From Bacteroidales bacterium (GTDB taxonomy: Bacteria > Bacteroidota > Bacteroidia > Bacteroidales > JAAYJT01), in NCBI GenBank assembly GCA_012522795.1, contig JAAYJT010000031.1, positions 1 through 64,000 of the forward strand: DNA of 64,000 nt. The letters run 5' to 3'. Positions 531 to 2,910 of the stretch are shown here, one piece after another. Below the pieces are notes generated by a model that had not been told where the DNA came from, did no database searches, and was given only the letters and a program-made list of their open reading frames with translations. The translations under genes and the position numbers were made by a program. How positions within the stretch are numbered: the first letter of the stretch is position 1; each line of letters begins with the position of its first letter.

Positions 531-1394
531 ATGGGCAAAGGAGATAAAAAAACCCGAAGAGGCAAAATAGTTGCCGGAACCTATGGGGTAAGGCGTAAAA
601 AGAAAAGAAAAAGAAAAACAGCAAGCTTCTCAGCAGTAGCATCACCTAAAAAAGAAGCTGCTGAAATAGTAGAAGAAATAATTGCAACTCCGGAAATTAA
701 AGAAGAACCGGTAGCTGAAGTTATTGAAAAAAGTGAAGCTGCAGAAACAAAAACGAGCGAAGCTGAAGCTGCAAAGAAGGCTGTTGAGGAAGCTAAAGTA
801 ACCGAGAAAAAGAAAAAGAAAACAGAAAGCTCTGCAGCAGAAGTATCTCCTGTAAAAGAAGCTGCTGAACTAGTAAAAGAAAAAACTGCAGCTCCGAAAA
901 TTAAAGAAGAACCGGTAGCTGAAGTTATTGAAAAAAGTGAAGTTGTAGAAACAAAAGAGAGTAAAACTGCTAAGGAGGCTGTTAAAGATACAAAAGTAAC
1001 CGAAAAAAAGAAAAAGAAAACAGAAAGCTCTGCAGCAGAGGCATCTCCTAAAAAAGAAGTTGCTGAACTGGTAAAAGAAAAGACTGCAGCTCCGAAAATT
1101 AAAGAAGAGCCGGTAGCTGAAATTATAGAAGAAAGTGAAGTTGCAGAAACAAAAGCGAAAGAAGCTGAAGCTTCTAAGGATACTATTGAAGAGGTTAAAA
1201 CAGCTGAAGAAAAGAAAAAGAAAACAACTGCAAAGAAAACTAAAACTGAGGCAAAGGCTGATGAAGAAAAAGTTCCTGCTGAGGAAAAGAAGAAAAAGAC
1301 AGTAAGCAAGAAAGCAGCTGAGAAGACAAAAGAAAAGGAAGGGGATAAGGAAAAAAAAGAGACTAAAACAGAAGATACAAAGGAGGCTGAATGA
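531..1394 (+). CDS. 30S ribosomal protein THX with long repetitive K/E/A-rich C-terminal extension
   Basis: Residues 1-29 (MGKGDKKTRRGKI...GTYGVRRKKKRKRK) are an almost canonical bTHX/Thx, a 25-45 residue basic peptide that sits in the head of the small ribosomal subunit. Here it runs on without a stop for ~255 further residues of low-complexity Lys/Glu/Ala sequence. The tail has three imperfect tandem units starting near residues 38, 106 and 172 (SPKKEAAEIV, SPVKEAAELV, SPKKEVAELV). Each unit contains KIKEEPVAE or a close variant and ends near EKKKKKT. A fourth region (233-287) is lysine/glutamate repeats. The tail is probably disordered or coiled coil. Start ATG 531 fits the THX family exactly. 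Extended THX proteins may exist in relatives; the tail's function is unknown. Confidence 0.85.
   Translation: MGKGDKKTRRGKIVAGTYGVRRKKKRKRKTASFSAVASPKKEAAEIVEEIIATPEIKEEPVAEVIEKSEAAETKTSEAEAAKKAVEEAKVTEKKKKKTESSAAEVSPVKEAAELVKEKTAAPKIKEEPVAEVIEKSEVVETKESKTAKEAVKDTKVTEKKKKKTESSAAEASPKKEVAELVKEKTAAPKIKEEPVAEIIEESEVAETKAKEAEASKDTIEEVKTAEEKKKKTTAKKTKTEAKADEEKVPAEEKKKKTVSKKAAEKTKEKEGDKEKKETKTEDTKEAE
642..1226 (+). repeat. Three in-frame ~200-bp tandem repeats in the THX tail
   Basis: Units begin near 642, 846 and 1044, about 204 and 198 bp apart, and keep the reading frame. Shared blocks include the DNA for APKIKEEPVAE and EKKKKKTESSAAE. Units 2 and 3 are the most alike, suggesting recent duplication by slippage or unequal crossing over. 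Tail length could therefore vary between strains. Confidence 0.8.
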
Positions 1395-1488: not shown

Positions 1489-2910
1489 TTATAAATTACC
1501 GGATAGTTTTGTTGTGTTCTGATCTTTCAGGGATTGAAACCAGTTATTAACCAATTTCCTGAACCGGTTTCCACGGTGTTCAAAATTCATGAACTTATCA
1601 TAGCTCGCTGCTGCAGGGGATAAAAGGCAAGCACGGTTTTCAGAAGTATTTTTAATTGCCTGCTTTACCATTTCATCGAAATTTTTAAACCATTTACATT
1701 GATGCTTTCGTGTCAGACGTGGCTTTAGCATATTCAACATCCGTTTACCGGCATCACCTGTAAAGAAAAAATTTGGTATTTCAGAATTGGCAAGATAATC
1801 AACTAATTGTGAATAATCTATTCCCCGATCGTATCCTCCAAGGAGCAAACAATCAATATCTTTAATGGTATCTAGGGCATAAATAACTGCTTCGGGAATA
1901 GTTGCAATTGAATCATTATAGAATCGTTTGCCGTTATAACTACCAATGAATTCCAGTCTATGCTGTAAGCCCCTGAAGTCTACCAGTGAGTTACAAAAGT
2001 TAAAATCAGTTACTCCGGCTCCAATAAGCGCCGAAAATGCAGCCATCAGATTTAATTGGTTATGTCTTCCTGGCAGAAATTCAATTCCAGTAAGATCGCA
2101 AATCATTTTTAAAGCACCTGAGGTATTCAAAAAAATCTGATCATCCTTAAAACAAGTATTTAAACACGGTTCTGTTCCAAAACCATAAGTTATCTTGTTT
2201 GAAACCAGAGTAGAATGATTTATTAAATCTACAACTGAGTTTTCCTTACCCGGGTAAATCAAAAAATCTTTGCTGGTCTGCCATTTCGCAATATTGAGTT
2301 TAGCAAGCTGATACGACTGAAAATCATTGAAATGATCAAGATGTTCCTGATAAATGTTTAGCAATACGGCAATATGTGGAGAAACTCTTACCTTTTCAAG
2401 CTGATGGGCTGACAACTCAAAAACAATAAGAGTTTCAGGCTGTATCTGGTCTATTACATCGAAAGGAGGCAGACCAATATTTCCAACAAGCAAGGATTTA
2501 TATTTAGCTGAGCTTAAAAGATGATGTATTAATCTGGCAGTTGTACTTTTTCCTTTTGTCCCAGTTATTCCAATGGTCTGGTTGCGATATACCTCAAGGA
2601 ACAGCTCAGTTTGCGAAGTAAGTTTCTCATCAGGCAATGATGCAGGAAACAGGTTTTCAGAAATTCCGGGGCTTTTAATAATTACATCAAAAGATCCAAG
2701 GTCATGAAGATAATTCTCTCCAAAATTCATGATGGTATTTACATGCCGGAATTCATCAATATTTAGAAGCTCAGTGCGCTGATCAGAAAGAGTAATCTGC
2801 TGATCCGGAAGCATTTTCCGCAAAAATCTGTATGTTGACTTGCCTTCAACACCAAGACCAAGGATCAACACTCTTTTTCCAGCAATCTTACTGTTAAAAA
2901 CCTGTTCCAT
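1489..2910 (-). CDS. murD2: MurD2: UDP-N-acetylmuramoyl-L-alanine--L-glutamate ligase
   Basis: A 473-residue Mur ligase. Visible features are an N-terminal Rossmann motif (VLILGLGVEGKST, residues ~14-26), the ATP P-loop GITGTKGKSTTA (~113-124), and C-terminal ligase-domain motifs (GGYDRGIDY, LLSPAAASYDKFMNFEHRG). The GTKGKST form and the coupling to murL (17-bp overlap with its 3' end) match the MurD2/MurL system characterised in Xanthomonas. There MurD2 adds L-Glu to UDP-MurNAc-L-Ala and MurL then epimerises it to D-Glu. The protein acts in the cytoplasm in peptidoglycan precursor synthesis. By sequence alone a canonical MurD (D-Glu adding) cannot be fully excluded; the assignment to MurD2 rests on the neighbour. 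Confidence 0.8.
   Translation of the reverse strand: MEQVFNSKIAGKRVLILGLGVEGKSTYRFLRKMLPDQQITLSDQRTELLNIDEFRHVNTIMNFGENYLHDLGSFDVIIKSPGISENLFPASLPDEKLTSQTELFLEVYRNQTIGITGTKGKSTTARLIHHLLSSAKYKSLLVGNIGLPPFDVIDQIQPETLIVFELSAHQLEKVRVSPHIAVLLNIYQEHLDHFNDFQSYQLAKLNIAKWQTSKDFLIYPGKENSVVDLINHSTLVSNKITYGFGTEPCLNTCFKDDQIFLNTSGALKMICDLTGIEFLPGRHNQLNLMAAFSALIGAGVTDFNFCNSLVDFRGLQHRLEFIGSYNGKRFYNDSIATIPEAVIYALDTIKDIDCLLLGGYDRGIDYSQLVDYLANSEIPNFFFTGDAGKRMLNMLKPRLTRKHQCKWFKNFDEMVKQAIKNTSENRACLLSPAAASYDKFMNFEHRGNRFRKLVNNWFQSLKDQNTTKLSGNL

Follow-up and report, generated by a model that had tools for sequence, protein, structure and literature searches.

A bTHX-type ribosomal protein with a long, repetitive C-terminal tail in Bacteroidales

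Introduction

What is a ribosomal protein that is generally regarded as a minimal structural peptide doing with a C-terminal tail of hundreds of residues? The protein, bTHX (also Thx, S31e or PSRP4), is known from Thermus and from plastid and mitochondrial ribosomes, and as a peptide it runs to about 25-45 residues. In the stretch of Bacteroidales DNA analysed here, 64,000 nucleotides long and called the window below, a gene at 531-1394 of the forward strand encodes a THX protein of 287 aa. An earlier note had taken this gene for a bTHX core continued in frame by a repetitive, charged tail, and had treated it as a special fusion. Three questions follow: whether the core is really that of bTHX, whether the tail is peculiar to this genome, and what such a tail might do.

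We found no description of long THX tails in the open-licence papers searched, the THX alignment in the supplement of PMC3353972 lying outside the scope of that search, and this is weak evidence of novelty. The portions covered of PMC9976891, PMC10039652, PMC3734280, PMC10931766 and PMC3353972 make no mention of such tails.

Results

A bTHX core continued by a repetitive tail

The gene is a single open reading frame of 287 codons without an internal stop; the two other forward frames over the same stretch contain 18 and 38 stops. The antisense strand carries an open reading frame of 283 codons at 581-1432, most simply a putative mirror of the K/E/A codons. The protein begins MGKGDKKTRRGKIVAGTYGVRRKKKRKRK, and its residues 1-25 match TIGR04560 with 43.3 bits, where 26 is the cut-off, so that a true bTHX core with an in-frame tail, as the earlier note had it, is borne out by both the family match and the uninterrupted frame. 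The Pfam model Thx (PF17070) aligns over its full 27-position profile to residues 1-27 at 25.1 bits (E 1.8e-05), below its gathering threshold of 29.7; we read this as a threshold miss, because of the six other THX-core proteins scanned, each either a fusion or long-tailed, five fall short of it too. Among PDB sequences, the matching THX chains, the best of them Thermus-type, align to residues 1-27 (best E 1.4e-05), and no Bacteroidota THX chain is among these matches. The window's genome has one THX copy over the TIGR04560 cut-off, the second match reaching 15.7 bits, and the gene stands in the same place in close relatives, as is expected of bTHX.

The core of about 27 residues (531..611, forward strand) is what the window protein shares with bTHX elsewhere, and its location in the 30S head is expected by homology. 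In an alignment of 12 THX sequences the invariant core positions are M1, G2, K3, G4, D5, R10, G11, K12, G16, G19 and R22. The Thermus-type chains listed measure 23-27 aa, whereas the window protein adds 260 C-terminal residues. The five listed organellar THX sequences (94-136 aa) are also longer, but their extra length is largely N-terminal, since the core begins at residue 45 or later; in the window the extension is C-terminal instead.

Counted from residue 28, the tail comprises 260 residues. The earlier figure of 255 was right about a long tail, though the count itself depends on where the core is taken to end. All parts of the tail lie on the forward strand. A linker, RKTASFSAV (residues 28-36, 612..638), leads into three repeat units that start at residues 37, 105 and 171, with spacings of 68 and 66: unit 1 (residues 37-104, 68 aa, 639..842), unit 2 (residues 105-170, 66 aa, 843..1040) and unit 3, the most diverged copy (residues 171-236, 66 aa, 1041..1238). 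Tandem Repeats Finder (TRF) gives a main array at 603-1226 with a period of 198 bp, 3.1 copies and 83% matches, and the three tandem repeats of about 66 residues described before are thus confirmed; a 27-bp sub-array is reported as well, at 1074-1132. The protein closes with a K/E-rich segment (residues 237-287, 1239..1391), previously called lysine-rich; lysine is indeed abundant there, but acidic residues balance it and the net charge is +1. Downstream, in convergent orientation, lies a Mur-ligase-like gene (1489..2910, reverse strand), named by sequence reading rather than by a family search. As a separate observation, TRF finds a 31-bp unit in two copies with 93% matches upstream of the THX gene, at 300-360.

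The tail is 24% K, 24% E and 16% A, with a net charge of -2 over its 260 residues; residues 28-38 carry +2. F and G occur once each in it and L twice, while W, Y, C, M, H, Q and N are absent. The order of its charges is about that of a shuffled sequence (0.64 of shuffles score at least as high). A structure model of the protein made without an alignment has scattered helices, a pLDDT of 58 and a pTM of 0.17, a low confidence that would fit disorder. Given this model and the scarcity of order-promoting residues, the tail is most likely flexible.

Long THX tails are widespread in Bacteroidales

Counting the window's own genome, THX matches were found in 28 of the 60 genomes of the nearest set, in 156 of the 393 genomes of the order (237 giving no match) and in 69 of the 395 of the phylum. 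As a 2012 survey, in the portion covered, reports THX in all Bacteroidetes except one (PMC3353972), the lower rates here may include misses by our search model of 26 positions as well as losses. Nine loci without an MGKGD/S start were dropped before counting (L002, L029, L049, L053, L054, L056, L059, L178 and L179), and three proteins that run off a contig end (L074, L129 and L152) stand outside the length counts.

Among the matches listed, the 150 from Bacteroidales, which take in the window and three fusions to an HNH-like domain described below, have open frames with a median length of 104.5 codons, with 112 above 70 and 12 above 200, as against a median of 56 for the 69 from the phylum outside Bacteroidales, where 18 exceed 70 and none exceeds 200; these open-frame counts include a few codons before the start. 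The comparison of tail lengths across Bacteroidota that the earlier note had proposed therefore finds long tails recurring, and with 112 of the 150 listed Bacteroidales frames above 70 codons a lone, strain-specific fusion is ruled out. A table of 132 closed non-HNH proteins of the order (33 to 315 aa, 101 of them above 60 aa) leaves out many short entries, and the 150 listed frames are the figure to use. The longest low-complexity THX that we read has 315 aa (genome G016), which places the window's 287 aa near the top of the range. In a scan of named genomes a readable THX start was present in 79 of the best 80 of 445 relatives, and the isolates among these 80 have THX proteins of 43 to 87 aa. 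Examples at the long end are Aquimarina algiphila (87 aa), A. atlantica (82 aa) and Paucihalobacter ruber (74 aa), and at the short end Parapedobacter soli (44 aa) and Subsaxibacter sp. (43 aa).

Like the long-tailed THX proteins of other Bacteroidales and of some Flavobacteriia, the window protein combines the same core with a tail of the K/E/A/T/V/P kind, very variable in length; unlike them, it has a clear repeat of 66-68 aa and is neutral where they are positive. A net positive charge is the rule for tails that reach 40 residues, 92 of the 99 such proteins of the order having one, and the window's tail (-2) is an exception. Long-tailed THX is a real and widespread variant of a known protein, and the length of the window protein falls near the top of the lengths commonly seen in Bacteroidales.

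Individual tail ends differ in other ways. Two, at L145 and L159, finish in QTSLFDNE and QKDLFTEDK, which we take to resemble the sliding-clamp-binding motif, and L024 has a weaker look-alike; these are too few to carry weight. One THX protein of 252 aa (L062, G492:C118:30200-31600) ends in about 100 residues of normal complexity; the protein has no Pfam match over cut-off other than Thx.

Tails on bS16 and bL17

Nor is THX the only tailed ribosomal protein of this genome, a further point on which its status as a special fusion gives way. Its bS16 extends 97 residues beyond the query core, part of which may be ordinary bS16, with a net charge of -9, and its bL17 extends 91 residues with a net charge of -11; its bL21 (open frame 108) has no long tail. 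Across these genomes the bS16 and bL17 tails resemble those of THX in being E/K/A-rich and C-terminal. Unlike THX tails, however, all 32 bS16 tails that reach 25 residues (from 33 closed-frame loci) carry a net negative charge. Those of bL17, from 35 closed-frame loci, are not uniformly acidic: of the 28 that reach 25 residues, 16 have a negative net charge, 10 a positive one and 2 none.

The lengths of these tails go together. In a non-random sample of 80 THX-bearing genomes picked from those examined, G016 included, THX length correlates with the open frame of bL17 (Spearman 0.53, n=78) and of bS16 (0.50, n=74), and with one genome taken per family the median rho is 0.57 for bL17 (45 families) and 0.54 for bS16 (42). 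With genome size THX length gives a rho of -0.02 (26 genomes). The genome with the longest THX read, G016, departs from the trend, its bS16 frame being only 87.

Length and selection in close relatives

Two congeners carry THX proteins of 153 aa (L019) and 102 aa (L012) beside the 287 aa of the window, which disposes of the possibility, named in the earlier note, that the tail is absent from all close relatives. The convergent Mur-ligase-like gene adjoins THX in all three, and at this same locus the tails measure 75, 126 and 260 residues. THX tail length therefore shifts greatly within one genus, and the length variation foreseen between strains is strong already between relatives.

Comparing the window's own repeat units with each other gives dN/dS values of 0.86, 0.82 and 1.03; these copies have drifted nearly freely, close to neutral. 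The picture from the relatives is another one. In eight pairs with alignable tails the pooled tail dN/dS is 0.30 over 702 codons (core, 0.125), a value biased downwards because pairs were picked for alignable tails, being admitted only at a tail identity of at least 0.6, and the window itself is in no pair. The pooled proportions are 0.329 for synonymous and 0.120 for nonsynonymous differences (Fisher P 3e-23, treating sites as independent), and differences at codon positions 1, 2 and 3 number 111, 73 and 164, so that the third position changes most. Single pairs range from 0.12 (L114/L125, near saturation at synonymous sites) to 0.84 (L174/L175, two copies from one genome). The alignable tails of these relatives are under purifying selection, and this comparison of sister species argues only against a wholly neutral tail. 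Since the relatives' alignable tails are constrained while the window's repeat units drift nearly freely, the data suggest that selection maintains a type of composition and not an exact sequence. The L174/L175 pair also deserves mention in its own right: these near-identical THX copies lie near opposite ends of one contig (G353:C1) and differ in their tail ends, and they may represent overlapping ends of a circular chromosome that the assembly left unjoined.

THX cores fused to other domains

In three genomes of the order the THX core is fused in frame to a domain with a CxxC-HxP-CxxC pattern, giving proteins of 270-275 aa (L167, G500:C569:1-1500; L168, G558:C188:2000-3500; L170, G483:C8:3200-4750). 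By reading of its motifs this domain appears HNH-like; Pfam HNH_5 was matched in one of the three, at only 15.4 bits, below its cut-off. One of these genomes, G558, also has an ordinary THX of 49 aa. Used as a query in 295 genomes of the order, the HNH part matched in six: the three fusions, a THX-less homologue in G498 (L294) and two weak cases. In a Paludibacter metagenome-assembled genome (MAG), a protein of 452 aa joins THX to a domain some 390 residues long (L244, 1501-2859), putatively PD-(D/E)xK-like and thus nuclease-like by the same kind of reading. That domain has no Pfam match over cut-off and a structure model with a pLDDT of 36.7, and a homologue without THX occurs in one of the 295 genomes, G540 (L348). 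In a Flavobacteriaceae MAG the THX tail ends in a helix-hairpin-helix domain (L269, 1400-2002; PF14520, 29.4 bits, cut-off 27), an ending presumably similar to that of flavobacterial bL21.

Provided that the assemblies are right, THX has acquired unrelated domains on more than one occasion. PADLOC returned no hit for the L170 and L244 fusion proteins. No relative of the THX core was found in the phages and viral contigs searched, and none of the HNH part in the viral contigs and plasmids searched; as far as these searches go, nothing points to an origin in phages or plasmids.

Discussion

The interpretation that we prefer, and that we hold with middling confidence, is that the window encodes a bTHX with a disordered C-terminal extension, in which an embedded ribosomal anchor bears a polyampholyte tail that is exposed, evolves fast and interacts weakly, by electrostatic contacts, around the 30S head. 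As we infer it, the protein would be incorporated in the 30S subunit, its 27-residue core docking in the 16S rRNA of the head as in Thermus, by homology, and the 260-residue tail would leave the subunit as an exposed, flexible polyampholyte, disordered in vivo. There it might engage RNA, as well as the acidic tails of bS16 and in part of bL17 on the same or on neighbouring ribosomes, through electrostatic contacts that are weak and multivalent, presumably to some benefit. It would grow and shrink by tandem duplication, its composition and charge being kept and its exact sequence not. An electrostatic coat of this kind is suggested by the mostly opposite charges of THX and bS16 tails and by the fact that their lengths rise together. 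Several findings speak against the proposal: the net charge of -2 and shuffle-like charge order of the window tail, the near-neutral drift of its own repeats, bL17 tails that are not uniformly acidic, the short bS16 frame of G016, the many genomes with a short or undetected THX, and the lack of a Bacteroidota THX chain among the PDB matches.

The main rival, which we take seriously although we think it unlikely, is that purine-rich repeats expand harmlessly by slippage at the exposed end of THX, so that the tail sits idle on the ribosome and selection does no more than avoid stops, hydrophobic residues and aggregation. Such tolerated slippage explains the repeats and the range of lengths well: the window's units stand at dN/dS 0.82-1.03, THX proteins of the order run from 33 to 315 aa, bS16 and bL17 share the habit, and the charge order equals that of shuffles. 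It explains the selection data less well, for the pooled tail dN/dS of sister species is 0.30, even with the bias of pair choice kept in mind, and THX tails that are net positive in 92 of 99 cases would have to be set against bS16 tails that are net negative in 32 of 32.

It is improbable, in our view, that the tail is directed to DNA or the nucleoid, like the K/A-rich tails of histone H1-like proteins, and couples ribosomes to the chromosome. The K/A/P/T-rich, net positive tails of 92 of 99 relatives would be in keeping with this; yet a histone H1-like K/A/P nucleoid tail has a strong net positive charge, and the window tail, at -2, is as acidic as it is basic. Composition alone, moreover, cannot separate DNA binding from RNA binding. 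We give a similarly small chance to removal of the tail during or after assembly, which would leave a short THX in the ribosome and a freed K/E/A peptide to be degraded or to act elsewhere: the change from core to low-complexity stretch is sharp, but on reading the protein sequences of the relatives we noticed no common cleavage-like junction. An assembly or sequencing artefact, in which THX became linked to an unrelated frame through repeats or a frameshift in a draft genome of 100 contigs, is very improbable and we reject it, as tails recur in other genomes, among them both congeners and the isolates Aquimarina algiphila (87 aa) and Paucihalobacter ruber (74 aa), and selection acts in the same frame in the relatives; the exact number of repeats in the window could alone be an assembly error.

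Beyond the bTHX with an exposed polyampholyte tail that we favour for the window, the fusions invite a broader and distinctly speculative idea, which we regard as doubtful: that THX in Bacteroidota is a ribosome anchor for cargo, usually charged tails forming a coat with the oppositely charged tails of bS16 and in part of bL17, and in a few genomes nuclease-like domains docked on the 30S head, perhaps to cleave RNA or nucleic acid of invaders. Fusions between THX and nuclease-like domains would demonstrate that the core is able to serve as a portable anchor.

The question of the tail can be put to the test, because close species differ in its length and cultured strains (Aquimarina, Paucihalobacter) are tailed. 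If the tails sit on the ribosome, many Bacteroidales ribosomes bear a long, flexible appendage on the head that is present in no PDB chain found. If true, this bears on how ribosomes meet each other and the mRNA in a group whose ribosomes, according to the portion covered of PMC9976891, do not recognise Shine-Dalgarno sequences.
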